Shown here: positions 18,227 through 58,306 of the stretch, piece after piece
Layout: each line of letters starts with the position of its first letter
Position numbering within the stretch: position 1 is the first letter of the stretch
Assembly: GCA_023053575.1 (NCBI GenBank)
Contig: JAKZAP010000015.1
Span: forward strand, 17,432,055 to 17,496,054
Source: Branchinecta lynchi
Lineage: Eukaryota > Arthropoda > Branchiopoda > Anostraca > Branchinectidae
Direction: 5' to 3'
Length of the DNA: 64,000 nucleotides
Program-made: the position numbers and the translations under genes
The notes under the pieces: generated by a model
What the model was told of the DNA's origin: nothing
Database searches by the model: none
Seen by the model: only the letters and a program-made list of their open reading frames with translations

Positions 18227-18604
18227 CAGGAACCCATACATTTCCTGTAATGACCCGCCATTCATGGGGCGTGTCAATAAGATATTTCTGATGCGCTCTT
18301 GACCGAGCGTCAGAAAGTTCGAGAAATACCCACGGGAATAAAATACCCGACTATCCAGATAGACAAAAATTTTTCGCAGCTGTCATGCTGAACTAGGGAT
18401 ATTTCTCTGTAATGGAAGAGTATCCTGGATCTTTTGTCCTAGCTTAGGTACCTGGTACCTTAGGTACCTTAGCAAAAACACCGATTCTACCCAAGCGGAA
18501 TTTTTGGAAACTAGGTGAGGCTCGGGCAACACAGCAGCACAGAAGCATAGGAAATGACAAGCCCCCTAAATGACGAGTCATTACAGGAAATGTATGGGCC
18601 CCTG
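18227..18604. mobile_element. inverted-repeat MITE with 7-bp direct repeats
   Basis: Ends CAGGAACCCATACATTTCCT and AGGAAATGTATGGGCCCCTG are complementary apart from two or three bases and extend inward (GTAATGA). GTCAAAC at 18220-18226 and 18605-18611 flanks it. The CAGG ends suggest hAT. Confidence 0.6.
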
Positions 18605-18704
18605 GTCAAACTCACAGACACTGAAATAAATATAAGCCACTGACTATGCCTGAAACAAATTAATCTACTAAATTCAGACAATGTTACACGGATACGTCAG
18701 CTAT

Positions 18705-18764
18705 GATTCTTCATCAGCGATATTTCGGCCCTTCTTGGCAAGGGTCCTCGTCAGGCTGTCAATC
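18705..18764 (-). ncRNA. hammerhead ribozyme, opposite-strand partner
   Basis: The reverse complement carries the same 60-nt motif as 18902-18961: GATT...CAGC, CTGACGA, helix II with GCCAAG loop, GAAA, ATATC, GCTG...AATC, with no core change. It forms the left arm of the inverted-pair element at 18673-19028. Confidence 0.78.
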
Positions 18765-18901
18765 CTCTGGTTCAACTTCGGGGAAGGAAACAAACAGGAG
18801 TTTTTGGGATGGAAAAGAATATTGTCGGCCTTTCTTATGGAAATTTTGAATGGTAAAATGCAACAAACAGGTTTGTTTCCTTCCCCGAAGTTGAACCAGA
18901 G

Positions 18902-18961
18902 GATTGACAGCCTGACGAGGACCCTTGCCAAGAAGGGCCGAAATATCGCTGATGAAGAATC
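18902..18961 (+). ncRNA. hammerhead ribozyme, type I, minimal helix III
   Basis: All core elements are present. Helix I proximal strand CAGC (18908-18911) pairs with GCTG (18948-18951), and distal GATT (18902-18905) pairs with AATC (18958-18961), separated by an internal loop. The core CTGACGA is at 18912-18918. Helix II GG(A)CCCTT/AAGGGCC has one bulged A and loop GCCAAG (18919-18939). GAAA is at 18940-18943. Helix III is the self-complementary ATAT overlapping GAAA, with U16.1 and C17 at 18946-18947, so the predicted cut is after 18947. A helix III too short to fold alone is known from hammerheads of Penelope-like elements, which work best as dimers. Right half of the inverted-pair element 18673-19028. 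Confidence 0.8.
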
Positions 18962-19500
18962 ATAGCTGACGTATCCGTTGTAACATTGTCTGAATAAATG
19001 TTTCAAAGTCAGCTTGGGCTCAAAGAATATTAATCTACTAAACCTAAAATCAAAGATAAGACACCACACCAGGACACTTACTATTTACAAAAAAGGGAGT
19101 TTTGGGATGGACAAGAATATTTTCGGCCTTTCTTATGGAAATTTTGCATTTTACCATTCAAAATCTCATCAATCATAAAGTCAGTTTTGTCTTATATAAG
19201 TCCTTTGTTACAGATACCCGCTGATCATCCTGAGCCATCCCGATACTACCAAAGGTCAAGCCTCAGACGTAAGTAATCAATACTCGTTTATAACATGAAT
19301 TAATGAATGTTTTTATTGCCCGCTCAAAGACAAAATCATCGAAAGCGGAGTAAGGAAAGGATCCAAACCGAACAAAATCAGATATGTCTAGGTTTATGTT
19401 GTCTGAGCAACGTGAAGTGTTGCAGCAACCTTGGGCGTAATTTCTTCTAAGTTGTCAAGTCTTATAGCCTATATTTTGAAATGGGATAGCAAGGGTTTTT

Positions 19501-20589
19501 GGGATCCCAAACCGTAAGTCGAGGGATACCTATGACATCGCAGAAGTTGTCCGTCTGTCCGTCTGTTAGCACGATAACTCTCGAAGGGAGTGAGATATTT
19601 TAATGAAACTTTGAAGATTCTTCGGGTCAAGGGTAAGGTCAAGTTCTGTAAGGGAGGGGGTTCAAATTAAGGGACGAAAAAACATTTTTAAACAGCTAAC
19701 GTGATAGTTGATTATGAGGTAAGAAGGCATGCTGAGCAAGATGGTGAAAACCATTTTCTTGTCGGACAAGTAGTTCGTCCGGAATCCGGCGAAAACCGGA
19801 AAGTTTGTTAAAAGTAAAAGTCTCATTTGAAGTTGATTAAATATTCGATTTCGAGATAAGAAGACGTGCCAAAGACGATGGTGAAAACTATTTTCTGGCC
19901 GGACACATAGTTCGTCTGGAATCCGGCAAAAAAAGGAAAGTTGGTTAAAAGTAAAAGTCTCATTTGAAGTTAATTAAATGTCCGATTTCGGGATAAGAAG
20001 ACACGCCGAACACGATGGTGAAAACTATTTTCTCACCGGACAAATATTTCGTCTGGAATCCGGCAAAAACCGGAAAGTTGGTTAAAAGTAAAAGTCTCAT
20101 TTGAAGTTCATTAAATGTTTGATTTCGGGATAAGAGGACATGCCGAGCACGATGGTGAAAACTATTTTATCGCCGGACAACTAGTTCACCCGGAATCCGA
20201 CCAAAACTGTAAAATTTGTTAAATCAAACGTTTTATGTGAAGTTGATTAGATGACAGATTTAAGGGTAAGAAGAGAGTTTGAGTCTGTATATGTCAATCA
20301 TTTTTTACCCGGACATATAATTAGTCAAAATCCGGTTGTAACCCGAATTTTTTAAAGTCAAAGTTTTATTTAAAGTTGATTATATGTTCGGATAAGGAGA
20401 TACGCTGTATTCGTTTTTTTTTTTTGCTGGACTAGTAGTTCGCTCGAAATTCGAGCTTAATGGGAAACTTGGCAGATTAAAGCAGGAAGTTTTGAATAGA
20501 TATGGCTTATAGAGGTATATCGGAACTTGGCGAATCTGGCGAAGACAAGACCCAATTCTCTCGATCAAATATTAGATTTGTGGGATCCC
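19501..20589 (+). repeat. GGGATCCC element, full-length copy with 137-bp array
   Basis: Bounded by GGGATCCC at 19501-19508 and 20582-20589. A leader (GTCCGTCTGTCCGTCTG, then GAGTGAGATATTTTAATGAA) is followed by tandem units whose CGGACA box recurs at 19763, 19900, 20037 and 20174, exactly 137 bp apart, each with TCCGG(A)ATCCGGC..AAACCGG. A unique 3' part follows. An inverted full-length copy lies at 54725-55850. No coding frame. Confidence 0.7.
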
Positions 20590-23835: not shown

Positions 23836-24004
23836 GGACCGTATCCAGGAATTTTTTTCGGGGAGGAGGGGGGGCTTTCGGGGGGAGGGGTTTATTGCCT
23901 GCTGGTCGGACAAAAAAGTACAAAAAACACTCGGATCAGAGGGAAAAGCCTATAAAAATCATTATTTGCATATGTTGCGGGGGGGGGGGTCAATCCCCTA
24001 TTCT
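23836..24004 (-). mobile_element. truncated poly-G hAT-like fragment
   Basis: Begins GGACCGTATCCAGGAATTTT with long G runs, the inverted form of the element at 579-763; the other end is cut off by the hammerhead element at 24005. Confidence 0.5.
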
Positions 24005-24235
24005 TTGAGCCCAAGCTGACTTTAAAACATGTATTCAAACAATGTTTACAACGGATACGTCAGCGATATTTCGGCCCTTCTTGGCAAGGGTGATTACCGG
24101 TTTGTTTCCTTCCCCGACGCTGACCCAGAAGATTGACAGCCTGACGAGGATCCTTGTCAAGAAGGGCCGAAATGTCGCTGACGAAGAATCTTAGCTGACA
24201 TATCCGTTGTAAACATTGTTTGAATATATTCAGTA
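24005..24235. mobile_element. hammerhead retroelement, inverted pair with a damaged left arm
   Basis: The left arm (minus, from TTCTTTGAGCCCAAGC) breaks off after helix II near 24092. The right arm carries an intact + hammerhead at 24131-24190 (CTGACGA at 24141; GAAA then TGTC; helix II shows a C-to-T change leaving a G-U pair). It interrupts the poly-G hAT-like fragment just to its left. Confidence 0.65.
24131..24190 (+). ncRNA. hammerhead ribozyme copy
   Basis: The core CTGACGA...GAAA is intact. Helix I is GATT/AATC plus CAGC/GCTG. Helix II retains pairing through a G-U pair. Helix III is ATGT instead of ATAT, so dimer pairing would use G-U. Confidence 0.65.
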
Positions 24236-27466: not shown

Positions 27467-27587
27467 TTTTGTTTGACACAGGAAAAGATTCTACGGCAGT
27501 AGACTAACCTTTTTGGCATCAACTTTATTTCATTGACTTTCACTAGGGCTTATAATCAATAGGTGTCACGCACGTAAATATTCTTTG

Positions 27588-27745
27588 AGCCCAAGCTGGC
27601 TTTGAAACATTTATTCAAACAATGTTTGCAACGGATACGTCAGCTATGATTTTTCATCAGCGATATTTCGGCCCTTCTTGGCAAGGGTTCTCGTCAGGCT
27701 GTCAATCTTCTGGTTCAACTTCGGGGAAGGAAACAAACCTGTAAT
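27588..27745 (-). mobile_element. hammerhead retroelement, single unit, minus strand
   Basis: A single-arm copy runs from ATTCTTTGAGCCCAAGC to the GGGGAAGGAAACAAACC end. Its hammerhead is at 27648-27707 (minus), with intact CTGACGA and GAAA. It is inserted inside the hAT relic 27113-28251, so it is younger than that element. Confidence 0.65.
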
Positions 27746-28347
27746 AAATAACTGAAGCTTCTACCGACTATAAATATCTTATTAAAGTAAATTATCTTCA
27801 AATACCACTATAAAGAAAAAACTAGTCCTCAGATTTAATTTTTGACAACGACGCTGTTTTTGCTGCACGATTGGGGCGATGACAGGAAAGGGTTTTTTCT
27901 GCATTTTGATCAACTTCGGTTTTTTCATTAATAAGGGGCTGAAAACCAAACGCACGGTTTGGCAACACCCTTCCCCTTAAAGTGGTCGGCCATACGGTTA
28001 AAAAGAAATGAGTCGCACAAAGCACCGCGATTTTTCGTAGAAACACTTATTTTTTTTAAAAGCAGTTGACCAGCCAGTCAGTAAAAATTCCTTGCCCCTC
28101 AAATTTTTTTTTGCTAGTGATGCCTCTGCTGGCAATATTAAGCTTTCGTGAGTGAGGCGAGATTTTGAAGCTACAGACTAAATCGATGTTGGTACCTTCG
28201 CGTACCCCGTTGGGTACGCGTACCACCGGTTGGGAACCACTGGTCTCGATGAATAAGTCCAAAATCAATATTCCTAAATATTCTTTGAGCCCAAGCTGAC
28301 TTTGAAACATTTATTCAAACAATGTTTACAACGGATACGTCAGCTAT

Positions 28348-28407
28348 GATTCTTCATCAGCGATATTTCGGCCCTTCTTGGCAAGGGTCCTCGTCAGGCT
28401 GTCAATC
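28348..28407 (-). ncRNA. hammerhead ribozyme copy
   Basis: On the minus strand the full 60-nt motif is present, including CTGACGA, the helix II hairpin, GAAA and ATATC. Confidence 0.72.
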
Positions 28408-28462
28408 TTCTGGTTCAACTTCGGGGAAGGAAACAAGGATTACAGGTTTGTTTCCACCAGAA

Positions 28463-28522
28463 GATTGACAGCCTGACGAGGACCCTTGCCAAGAAGGGCC
28501 GAAATATCGCTGATGAAGAATC
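28463..28522 (+). ncRNA. hammerhead ribozyme copy
   Basis: CTGACGA at 28473-28479, GAAA at 28501-28504, TATC with predicted cut after 28508, and helix I GATT/AATC and CAGC/GCTG are all intact. Confidence 0.75.
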
Positions 28523-29229
28523 ATAGCTGACGTATCCGTTGTAAACATTGTTTGAATAAATCAATATTCCTAATTGGGGATCCCATTGAAACCTTTGTTC
28601 TTGTTTTAAGTAGCAACTTGAGCTGAGCTGCTGCACTAGCGAAACTGGAACGACATGCTGTCCAGTTAACCTCTAGAGATGGACAGGAAAGCTGCTAAGC
28701 ACCTGTCAGATAGTTAATCTGGCAACATTCTGCACTGCCCACAATCGTGAAAATAAGCTGTGTCTGCTATTATTCTCTTTTTGATGAATCTCCACAAATC
28801 AAAATGCATAATGTTTTGAAATCACAATAAAGGCCGTTAGGCTTAAGAAATACAGGATATAAGAAATGGACAACTTTTTATTTGCAGGCGAGTCCAAACA
28901 TGTTTCCTTTTTTTTAAATCAATCAACTGCAAGGTGGAAGATTGGAAGGTCATTAGCATGGAATCCAATAGAAAAAAAAGAAAAAAACAAGCAGCTTGGG
29001 GCTACCCACTCACGACACCTGTTGTACACCCTTTCTCGACACCGGCTTGCACCTGCCGAAACAAGGGATTCTGGCACCGGTGCCGGTTATAAATTAAGCG
29101 ATTCATTTCAAACGCTTCTGATCAAGCTGATTTTAATGTTCTAACACCGGGCACTTGCTGTATAATAAATTAGGAGTGTCTAGCCCCTTAACAAGCAGTA
29201 ACTACTACGGCACGCCTACTGTACTGAAA

Positions 29230-29640: not shown

Positions 29641-29811
29641 CGATTACAGGTTTGTTTCTTTCCCCGAAGTTGAACAAGAGGACTGAAAGCCTGACGAGGA
29701 CCCTTGCCAAGAAGGGCCGAAATATCGCTTATGAAGAATCTTAGCTGATGTATCCGTTGAAAACATTGCTGGAATAAATGTTTCAAAGTCAGCTTGGGCT
29801 TAAAGAATATT
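29641..29811 (+). mobile_element. single-unit hammerhead retroelement with 13-bp target duplication
   Basis: A complete 171-bp single copy is bounded by TACATGCTTCTAC at 29628-29640 and 29812-29824. It defines the unit from CGATTACAGGTTTGTTTC to the CTTAAAGAATATT end. It shows that one arm alone can be mobilised. Confidence 0.78.
29681..29740 (+). ncRNA. hammerhead ribozyme copy with compensatory helix I change
   Basis: CTGACGA is at 29691-29697 and GAAA/TATC are intact. The proximal helix I strands are AAGC and GCTT instead of CAGC and GCTG, a paired double change that keeps the helix. Confidence 0.75.
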
Positions 29812-29884
29812 TACATGCTTCTACTTCAAGGCTACCGTGTTACTGCATACTACTATATGCTAGCATTAGCAAGACTGGATGCTA

Positions 29885-34171: not shown

Positions 34172-34860
34172 TTAAAGTTTAACTGAAAAGCCAACTTAGT
34201 TTTGTATCATTTAACTAATTACACTGCATTATTTTGATTGCGTTAAGGGGTTTGTTTTATTTTTCACTATTTGCTCTGTCGTGGCGTTCAGAATATCTAC
34301 GGCCTTCCTCGATGTTTCGCGATGTTTCGGCGATGTTTCGGCCCTTCTTGGCAAGGGTCGTCGTCAGGCTGTCAATCCTCTGGTTCAACTTCGGGGAAGG
34401 AAACAAACCTGTAATAATCAATGTAATAAAGAATTCTGTAATAAAGAATTTGTTTCCTTCCCCGAAGTTGAAACCAGAGGATATTTTTGTACCGACTGTT
34501 TTTTTTTTTTGGGGGGGGGGCGTCCCCCTTCCTCCCCCCCAGTCGTGATGCCCCTGAGGCGAGGAGAGTTTGAATGCTAAGCCCGGTAAAACAATGGCTG
34601 AAGAAAGCAGGAAAATGATGTCTTGCAAGGAATCTACCATATTTAGTATATTTTTTGGCAATGCTTACCTTTGTAGTTGGTAAATATTTCAAGCGTAGAG
34701 GGAAACGCACATGGAGGTACCACAATCCGAAAGAATAAGTTCATTTGATGAAATCGATTATCTGTGAATAACGGACACACGAAGTAACGCATTTGTGTCG
34801 GGTTTTTAAGCCTATTTAAATGAATGTTGTCTGTGACCTAAAATCTTGGATCGTCCTTGA
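34172..34860 (+). mobile_element. TTAA MITE split by later insertions
   Basis: The left part 34172-34305 begins TTAAAGTTTAACTGAAAAG; the right part resumes near 34690 (GGAGGTACCACAATCC, GGTTTTTAAGCCTATTTAAA). Hammerhead and poly-G material occupies the middle. Confidence 0.55.
34300..34560. mobile_element. rearranged hammerhead unit and poly-G fragment inside a TTAA MITE
   Basis: A minus-strand hammerhead core (about 34330-34377) with a changed first helix II base precedes an inverted piece of the GGGGAAGGAAACAAA end (34440-34475), a T/G homopolymer run (34499-34520) and a hAT-like end (CCCAGTCGTGATGCCCCTG). All interrupt the MITE 34172-34860. Confidence 0.5.
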
Positions 34861-35879: not shown

Positions 35880-37520
35880 GCCACACAATTCCCCCCCCCC
35901 CCCAGCTCCCGAATCGAATACGACTCGGACACATAAACGTTGCATCTCTGACGCCTTCTCTTCCCCTACATAAAGTTTGACCCAAAGGTTTGACCCGAGT
36001 TGGAGCACTTCTGCAAATTGACCGGATTTTCCCGAAAAATTCTCAGATTCGAGTGAAACTTGACAGATGGTAAGAGAAGATACATTACGTGTCCGAACCA
36101 GCTTCGGCCGCGGTACGGGAAGTTGGAGGGGGTAACGGAAATAGTGTGGCACGTCTAGGGGCCGAGGCGACACCAGAAATGCTCAGACTCGTGTGAAACT
36201 AGATCTCCTATTTCTAGGTCCGAACCAAGGGGGATCGAAGGGGGCATTTTGTGATGTTCTCATCTACGTTCTTGCATCATCTACTCGTCAGAAATGCCAT
36301 ATGAGCTCGCAACTCTTTTCATAAAGTGTACTCCTTCGGTCGTTTATAAAGATATCAACCAACTGTAGTAACTTCAGTTGCTGTAACATTGTACTAACTT
36401 CAAAATCAGTCTTGTATGGTGCCATTTCCGAGCATTTAAGCAGTTACTTTCTTTCCAGAATTCAGCCAGACAAGTTCACCTGACGGAAGAAGAGAGAAAA
36501 CTGCTCATTCAAGAAGGACTACCCATCCCAGTAAGATACCCACTTTCGAAAATGGATGAACGGAATTTGAAAAGAATAAGGAGAAAAATTAAAAACAAGG
36601 TAATTTTGACTAAGACATTCCCAAAATTTGGTCACAAGTGCTCCAACTTAAGAGCAAGGGCACAGTACCCCACCATTTGAATCTGATCGTAAAAATAAAT
36701 AAATCAGGTTTCAACTCAGCCGATTATCAGGGGGGTGTTGTGTCCTTGCTCCTTATGCACTTCCTCCATCCCCAACTATAATGGGTGGTAGCAGCAGATG
36801 CCCGAGATTACTTAGTTATGTGTCCGAATTGCACCCGATCATGAGAGGGTCGGAAATATTTTGACATGCGTAGGTACCAAACAGGGTTTTCTAGATTTTT
36901 CTTACGAGGTGAGTCTGGCATAAGTAGCAGAGGCTGGGGGGGGGGGGGTACCCTACATTTCTGGAAGTCCTCTGATTCCAGTGTAACTTGATGGGTTTTA
37001 AGAACAAATGCCATAGACGCGTCAGCCATGTTCCGAACCACAAGTGACCACGTTGAGGGGACTTGGAGGAGGCCCAGAAGTACCTATTAAAACAACGGGT
37101 AAGAACAGAAAGTCGCTTCAGATTGTTTGTGATAGGGAAGTGTTGTGATACCTGTAGAGACCAAACGAACGGTGGTCCGTCTGGTAGCGATGAAACTAGG
37201 ATTTTGACAAAACTTTGTCAGGATTAAGGTTATAGGCTCTAAATGAGCCATTAGAGGTCTGAACCAAGCACAAACTCCGTTGGACGGATGAAAGGGGATT
37301 TTTCAGAAGTTCTCAGAGTTGAGTGAAACTTGATGGGTGATATGAGCAAATGCTCTTGAAGTGACATTTACCTGTCCGAATCGTATCTGCTCTAGGTGTA
37401 GGTAGTTTGTAAGGGATACCAGATATTTTCCGTGAGTCTTGTGGCATGCGGAACTCTCCGACCGGGATTTAATCCGGATGGACCTTGATAGTTGGCGAGA
37501 GCAAATGTTCCATTTGGGTT
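35880..37520 (-). repeat. degenerate TCCGG-family repeat, minus orientation
   Basis: Repeated TTCTCAGA.T.GAGTGAAACTTGA phrases with C/G tracts, roughly 200-300 bp apart, are the reverse of the TTTCA.TCGAATCTGA units at 40900-41500. No gene other than the exon at 36459-36599, which lies inside this stretch and is free of the repeat phrases. Confidence 0.45.
36459..36599 (+). CDS. CREB3L: CREB3-like bZIP factor, exon with pre-bZIP block and start of basic region
   Basis: The exon lies between an acceptor (TACTTTCTTTCCAG, AG at 36457-36458) and a donor (AAG|GTAATT, GT at 36600). It is exactly 141 nt, 47 codons, phase 0 at both ends. It encodes the block that is diagnostic of the CREB3/OASIS family: [18 protein letters not shown], then a YPLSK segment, then the first half of the basic region, [13 protein letters not shown]. 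In this family the block immediately before the basic region is conserved from flies to mammals and distinguishes these proteins from CREB1/ATF1 and ATF6. The exon boundary directly after KIKNK splits the basic region as I recall from vertebrate CREB3L genes. The protein would bind CRE/UPRE-like sites as a dimer. Confidence 0.95.
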
Positions 37521-57995: not shown

Positions 57996-58306
57996 TTTAT
58001 TCAAACAATATTTACAGCGGCTACGTCAGCTACGATTCTTCATCAGCGATATTTCGGCCCTTCTTGGCAAGGGTCCTCGCCAGGCTGTCAATCCTCTGGT
58101 TCAACTTCGGGGAAGGAAAAAAATTAAAAACAAAGGATTACGGGTTTGTTTCCTTCCCCGAAGTTGAACCAGAGGATTGACAGCCTGACGAGGACCCTTG
58201 CCAAGAAGGGCCGAAATATCGCTGAAGAAGAATCGTAGCTGACGTAGCAGTTGTAAACATTGTTTGAATAAATGTTTCAAAGTCAGCTTGGGCTCAAAGA
58301 ATATTT
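57996..58306. mobile_element. inverted-pair hammerhead retroelement
   Basis: The left arm (minus; 58034-58093) has CTGGCGA, a change at a core adenine expected to inactivate it. The right arm (plus; 58175-58234) is intact. Imperfect direct repeats ATGTTAATAAG (57985-57995) and ATGTTAAAAAG (58307-58317) flank it. Confidence 0.7.
58175..58234 (+). ncRNA. hammerhead ribozyme copy
   Basis: CTGACGA at 58185-58191, GAAA at 58213-58216 and TATC to 58220; helix I CAGC/GCTG and GATT/AATC intact. Confidence 0.72.

Follow-up and report, generated by a model that had tools for sequence, protein, structure and literature searches.

A predicted minimal hammerhead ribozyme in the pLTR of a Penelope-like element of Branchinecta lynchi

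Minimal type I hammerheads of Penelope-like elements (PLEs) have been proposed to act as dimers, and the role of hammerheads in PLEs was described as unknown in 2020 (both according to a summary in PMC7761336, which, like the other papers cited, is drawn on here in part). For the anole PLE, the sections consulted of PMC11167929 report that the ribozyme did not cleave in the absence of protein, that ribozyme mutants still inserted in vitro, and that public RNA-seq contained no read ends at the cut. Type I motifs can be very numerous in animal genomes, with over 6,000, both canonical and minimal, given for Acropora millepora in the corresponding part of PMC7229834.

In this study, a repeat was analyzed in a stretch of 64,000 nucleotides of Branchinecta lynchi DNA, which is referred to in its full length as the window. 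Judged from its sequence, the repeat is very likely the pseudo-LTR (pLTR) of an endonuclease-bearing PLE, and the motif within it the minimal type I hammerhead of that element, with predicted activity. Minimal, dimer-acting PLE hammerheads have already been described, and the present case is a new example rather than a new kind. Of interest are a cut predicted to fall before the ATG and a rule by which composite insertions carry one tail.

The hammerhead motif and its conservation

The first-pass annotation had read all conserved hammerhead core bases, together with pairing for helices I and II, within 60 nt at 18902-18961 (+), and the letters there are exactly as claimed. Helix I is formed by GATT-GA-CAGC pairing with GCTG-ATGAAG-AATC, the core comprises CTGACGA and GAAA followed by TATC, and helix II is the hairpin GGACCCTTGCCAAGAAGGGCC with one A bulged. 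The same annotation had taken helix III to be the self-complementary ATAT alone, which is how this stretch reads: in the monomer, only AUAU lies between the core and the cleavage site. The motif therefore lacks the helix III that forms inside one canonical type I motif, while the features of the minimal PLE form, namely, the core CUGANGA, GAAA, and UH with helices I and II, are all present. The cleavage position proposed earlier, after C18947, agrees with the sequence. Hammerhead activity of the motif, with cleavage, dimer action, and mRNA processing, is a prediction.

A strict scan of the 64-kb window, requiring the core bases, at least three helix I pairs, and at least two helix II pairs, identified 7 copies, against a mean of 0.17 in 30 randomized windows (first-order Markov). 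Five were on the plus strand and 2 on the minus strand, which bore out the claim that copies with an intact core occur on both strands. A looser search of the window, anchored on loop II, returned 16 rows, some of them spurious, and in 9 the core check was passed on the 5' as well as the 3' side. Across the genome (576 Mb), a perfect-core pattern modeled on the two pLTR families was matched 14,092 times, compared with 0 matches for the reversed pattern; when up to 2 mismatches were allowed, the corresponding numbers were 24,669 and 0. For canonical hammerheads, a pattern whose helix II is GTC/GAC occurred at background level, with 1 match versus 2 in the reversed control.

The core was perfect in 124 of 139 copies (47 of 61 distinct copies), all kept at 75% identity or more to one of two motif strings. 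Since this selection favors good copies, a comparison between families provides the stronger test, and it was conducted on one copy of each, L071 for family 1 and L077 for family 2. From CTGANGA to GAAATAT, that is, over the core and helix II, 34 of 35 positions were identical, and the sole difference lay at N7, a position that is free in hammerheads. Identity was 20/50 in the upstream flank, 25/51 from C17 to the ATG, and 31/36 over the first 12 codons. Conservation among the five segments was highest in the one containing the helix II hairpin. At position H17, family 1 has C (36 of 37 distinct rows) and family 2 mostly A (20 of 24 rows); a hammerhead allows either base. Helix I pair 4 was C-G in family 1 (35/37 distinct rows), and G-C in family 2 (18/24), whereas the window copy at 29691 has A-T. 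An uncompensated C-to-A change, giving an unpaired A-G, was present in another row of family 1. The self-complementary AUAU was present in both families. As the changes in helix I amount to few events, they are supportive rather than proof. At the level of sequence, the hammerhead reading is supported by the conservation between families and by the two-sided changes in one helix I pair.

The same data bear on the possibility that the repeat is a true PLE pLTR in which the hammerhead string has been kept for another reason, such as a protein-binding hairpin or a promoter, and RNA cutting has been lost. This is considered improbable, though it deserves some weight. It would fit the strong conservation of the helix II hairpin stretch and the absence of helix III from the monomer, as well as the findings that the anole PLE ribozyme did not cleave without protein and was dispensable for insertion in vitro (from the portion of PMC11167929 consulted). 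However, the conserved part is the catalytic core, the changes at N7 and H17 (A, C, and T) fall where a hammerhead tolerates change, and helix I pair 4 is changed on both sides.

Rfam hammerhead models expect a helix III. The covariance-model search suggested in the first-pass annotation was negative at every scale: no Rfam model of any kind matched at the gathering threshold in the whole window, and no hammerhead match was obtained at E values up to 1 in 18600-19100 or up to 10 in 18895-18970, and none with RF00163 genome-wide among the 72 of 91,239 candidates scored, where no control matched either. This outcome was weighed lightly because the models expect a helix that the motif lacks and because the controls were silent. 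The two regional searches otherwise returned low-scoring miRNA/snoRNA models, and a match to MIR5649 in 18600-19100 was rejected, as it represents the inverted repeat.

The minimum-energy fold of the 60-mer contained helix II and the inner 4 bp of helix I, and the fold that included the outer GATT/AATC pairs was 1.1 kcal/mol worse. Relative to shuffled sequences, folding was moderately better for the family 1 ribozymes (z = -2.07 and -2.15) and not better for the family 2 ribozyme (z = -0.27). As a separate observation, the start codon lies between AGCUGAC and GUCAGCU in each of the two pLTR families (L071:3808-3913, minus strand; window 18948-19050, plus strand), and a stem of these two around the inner 3' edge is possible, being part of the minimum-energy fold in 3 of 4 sequences (the fourth was folded without its first two bases). 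With z values of -1.03, -0.68, -0.22, and 0.70, none was clearly better than shuffles, and hence no claim is made on this stem.

The repeat as part of a Penelope-like element

The repeat unit was compared by BLAST with the window and with genome loci taken from a search in which 40 of 1,341 first-look candidates were scored. The 90 matches indicated a unit of ~172 nt with its 5' edge at q13/14 (42/90 matches) and two main 3' edges, one near q149 and the other at q184/185 (31/90). Some copies possessed a longer 5' flank, which in locus L033 leads to open-frame pieces with YVDD and GIYSIPCDCGKRYVGRT. When the RT piece of L033 was searched against the genome, 150 RT matches were obtained (150 of 751 candidates scored), 19 of which lay in an open frame of 863 aa, with a stop flagged in one of the 19. 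The run of RT matches at equal score (L042-L070 and others), along with the 19/150 in the 863-aa frame, suggests recent PLE activity.

Locus L071 is a tandem array of PLEs with a period of 3,019 nt and a pLTR unit at every junction, and the 863-aa frames in the tandem array begin MFQSQLGLKEYL. In the unit, the PLE frame begins ATGTTTCAAAG at q149, with an in-frame TAA directly upstream. It follows from this start that q149-q184 (36 nt) represents the first 12 codons. The PLE ORF is surrounded by pLTRs in both tandem and inverted arrangement. Full-length PLE copies contained the ribozyme, intact in most; at RT-bearing loci, 49 of 51 pLTR matches had no broken core in the part displayed and 2 were broken. 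In this count, 6 matches were covered from loop II onward, and loci that overlap enter twice. The distance from the predicted cut to the start codon corresponds to a leader of 50 nt in L071 and 50 to 51 nt in the window copies.

The 863-aa ORF was aligned with 11 homologues at 23 to 34% identity. Residues D505 and D506 of YVDD were invariant across the 12 aligned sequences, consistent with a PLE-type RT, as were Y710, C714, C716, Y720, G722, R731, E734, H735, H760, H767, and E789 of the GIY-YIG domain. The ORF thus ends in a GIY-YIG endonuclease with CxC and HH, features that mark PLE endonucleases. Pfam was silent on the PLE ORF itself, with no match for two 863-aa frames at E values up to 0.1 or for the RT and GIY-YIG pieces of L033, and therefore the domain evidence comes via the homologues. 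Among the 3 of 11 homologues scanned, RVT_1 was over the cut-off in all 3 and GIY-YIG in 2, the third (P0121) being just under it. Two window ORFs also gave no Pfam match. In a genome-wide search with PF01541, 2 of 4 candidates scored were over the cut-off (L039 and L040). At L039:688-795, pLTR-like pieces were observed ~0.7 kb from such a GIY-YIG match, which may represent the endonuclease end of a different PLE family.

Insertion architecture and the one-tail rule

The window contained 15 BLAST matches to the unit, all non-coding: ten of them form five head-to-head pairs, and the other five stand singly. The main features are listed in Table 1. The copy at 18902-18961 (+) and that at 18705-18764 (-) are the two arms of a single head-to-head insertion with ATTAATCTACTAAA on both sides, and over 108 nt each (18688-18795 and 18871-18978) the arms are 100% complementary. 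As part of a best explanation that is held with high confidence as a whole, the window copies are taken to be 5'-truncated, non-coding products of PLE insertion. Since the two ribozymes of an inverted pair in the window lie on opposite strands, no sense-dimer pairing would occur within one short transcript; cutting would need a second RNA, and these ribozymes are therefore probably passengers.

Table 1. Positions of repeat copies and associated features in the window
Feature	Position	Strand	Basis or remark
Minimal type I hammerhead	18902-18961	+	Core bases and helices I and II; ATAT as helix III; predicted cut after 18947
Second hammerhead, inverted arm of the same insertion	18705-18764 (core 18719-18754)	-	Strict scan
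Inverted pLTR arm without tail, ending near the PLE start codon position	18673-18795	-	BLAST
Direct pLTR arm with tail	18867-19028	+	Tail = first 12 PLE codons; ATG 18998-19000
Left target-site duplication, ATTAATCTACTAAA	18659-18672	No strand	Flank comparison
Right target-site duplication, ATTAATCTACTAAA	19029-19042	No strand	Flank comparison
Intact hammerhead core	24141-24176	+	Composite 23999-24229
Intact hammerhead core	28362-28397	-	Composite 28275-28561
Intact hammerhead core	28473-28508	+	Composite 28275-28561
Intact hammerhead core	29691-29726	+	Single pLTR 29642-29813; helix I pair 4 C-G to A-T, both sides changed
Intact hammerhead core	58185-58220	+	Composite 57996-58305; partner arm core broken (CTGGCGA)
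Single tailed pLTR, core bases intact, helix II mismatch	27572-27745	-	
Non-coding 3' PLE part upstream of pLTR 27572-27745	27746-27946	-	91% identical to RT-bearing L033
Head-to-head pLTR pair, both arms truncated	34326-34482	- arm 34326-34415, + arm 34449-34482	

Other features of the window were also observed. The spacer between the two arms (18792-18863) is 83% identical to 19090-19161, just outside the insertion; it could have been copied from the flank as filler, or it could be a repeat in its own right. Two 137-nt direct repeats, 83% identical, stand in tandem at 19704-19977, and an open frame at 36387-36680 (+) presumably resembles an exon of the CREB3/ATF6-type bZIP class.

Most PLE insertions were found to end either at the start codon or, 36 nt away, at codon 12; the segment between these two sites is termed the tail. 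An optional tail at one pLTR end, here of 36 nt and so within the 30 to 40 nt range, was accompanied by target duplication. Neighbors within 450 bp were analyzed in the window and at loci L010-L038, giving 30 head-to-head, 6 direct, and 6 tail-to-tail pairs. Both arms could be classified in 20 of the 30 head-to-head pairs, and all 20 had one tailed and one untailed arm. Because a tailed query had been used to select the loci, freedom from this bias is limited to 4 of the 20, the composites in the window, and one of these four had supplied the query. The remaining 10 pairs were other/tailed (7), other/untailed (2), and other/other (1). Among RT-selected copies, drawn from 29 of the 150 matches, there were 12 head-to-head composites, and all 9 that could be classified were one-tailed. 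For one of these 9, a reservation applies: an internal pLTR was taken as its tailed arm, and its outer arm (L068, to q187) has a tail too. The second family yielded 11 rows, 6 of them classifiable and all 6 one-tailed, some of the other rows being cross-hits to family 1. In total, exactly one tailed arm was counted in 35 of 35 classifiable composites, 13 of which had not been selected through the tailed query.

The flanks of the composites matched over at least 7 nt in 17 of 20 cases, versus 9% of shuffled (mismatched) flank pairs. The heads of the arms join at points that differ between copies, which suggests that each composite was made at insertion and not copied as a unit.

The first-pass annotation had proposed a Penelope-like or retrozyme-like element. 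The first part held: the repeat lies beside and between RT and GIY-YIG frames, and the signatures of pLTR, inverted partial pLTR, tail, and target duplication are present. The second part, with its expected circular RNA of ~170 nt, was not supported, as close copies are mainly head to head. Under a retrozyme explanation, small non-autonomous units of ~170 nt in tandem would spread via self-cleaved circular RNAs. The unit of ~172 nt does fall within the 150 to 450 bp range of animal type I hammerhead repeats (per the part of PMC7229834 consulted), and locus L024 contains two full tailed units in direct tandem. A tandem arrangement of ~170-nt monomers was nevertheless not the pattern of the copies: of the close pairs (<500 bp) among the 99 exact-match places listed, 9 of 10 were head to head and only 1 was direct, in line with the excess of head-to-head neighbors described above. 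The 3' part of the unit is also the start of the PLE coding frame, and copies run through the cleavage site rather than beginning there, with 42/90 matches starting at q13/14 and single matches near q97. A retrozyme is therefore regarded as very unlikely. A terminal-inverted-repeat DNA transposon (MITE) holding a hammerhead-like string by chance is scarcely credible, for while head-to-head arms with 7- to 16-nt matching flanks look MITE-like, the arms of classifiable composites differ by exactly one 36-nt tail, their head junctions vary between copies, and arms of this same kind border a frame with RT and endonuclease.

With the repeat read as a PLE pLTR, a sequence of steps can be proposed. 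Helix III would form when the palindromic AUAU of one transcript pairs with that of another, or when two units within a single tandem-array transcript pair in this way, and the dimer would then cut between UAUC and GCUG, 50 to 51 nt upstream of the PLE start codon. Cutting of tandem-array transcripts would in this way yield unit-length RNAs with a short leader and the whole reading frame kept. At insertion, both ends of the staggered target cut may prime cDNA synthesis on PLE RNA, with one start site used by one end and the second by the other, after which the two cDNAs would be joined head to head. The full form of this scheme, in which priming is obligately ordered over two sites (codon 12 at one end and the start codon at the other, never the same twice) and the ribozyme makes uncapped RNA 5' ends with a complete frame, is put forward tentatively. 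A PLE family with 19 of 150 RT matches in an 863-aa frame and a predicted cut before the ATG would be a good system for the study of ribozyme-made RNA ends, and the one-tail rule leads to a clear prediction of how the PLE reverse transcriptase handles two target ends.

Comparison with known systems

A strict count of one tail per composite was not found in the text examined of PMC3846280, PMC11167929, PMC7761336, or PMC7229834 or in literature searches, and the same applied to a hammerhead cut upstream of the start codon. Nor does the word hammerhead appear in the examined text of PMC3846280, the paper on the Penelope families of Adineta vaga (Arkhipova et al. 2013). The architecture reported there resembles that of the present PLE, with an inverted pLTR 37 bp shorter, a 31-bp tail that is optional on one inverted pLTR, and a 9-bp duplication. 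In A. vaga, however, the untailed pLTR holds 12 codons and the tail extends to 22, whereas the untailed end of the present element is at the ATG, and the example element is single copy, compared with the 150 RT matches scored here (PMC3846280, in part).

Short type I hammerhead repeats in animals are also known as metazoan non-LTR retrozymes (Cervera and de la Pena 2020, PMC7229834, in part). Retrozymes are tandem monomers, and those of invertebrates mostly have a stable helix III (PMC7761336, in part), while the present copies are mainly head-to-head pLTR pairs without helix III. The minimal PLE type I hammerheads (Cervera and de la Pena 2014; Lunse et al. 2017), as summarized in the consulted part of PMC7761336, are like the present motif in having no helix III and in residing in pLTRs.

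In the sections consulted of PMC11167929 (Frangieh et al. 2024), the Poseidon PLE of Anolis carolinensis (PAc) shares with the present element a frame with RT and GIY-YIG, an arrangement of pLTR-ORF units in tandem, a hammerhead where pLTR and ORF meet, and two RT start sites that bound a tail of 30 to 40 nt. The two elements differ in the position of the cut, which in PAc lies 26 nt inside the ORF and in the present PLE is predicted 50 to 51 nt upstream of the ATG, and in the RT start, which lies 111 to 118 nt into the ORF in PAc, while the tail of the present PLE consists of codons 1 to 12. Finally, no strand difference in start site was reported for PAc in vitro (PMC11167929, same sections), whereas the classifiable composites of the present PLE are strictly one-tailed.
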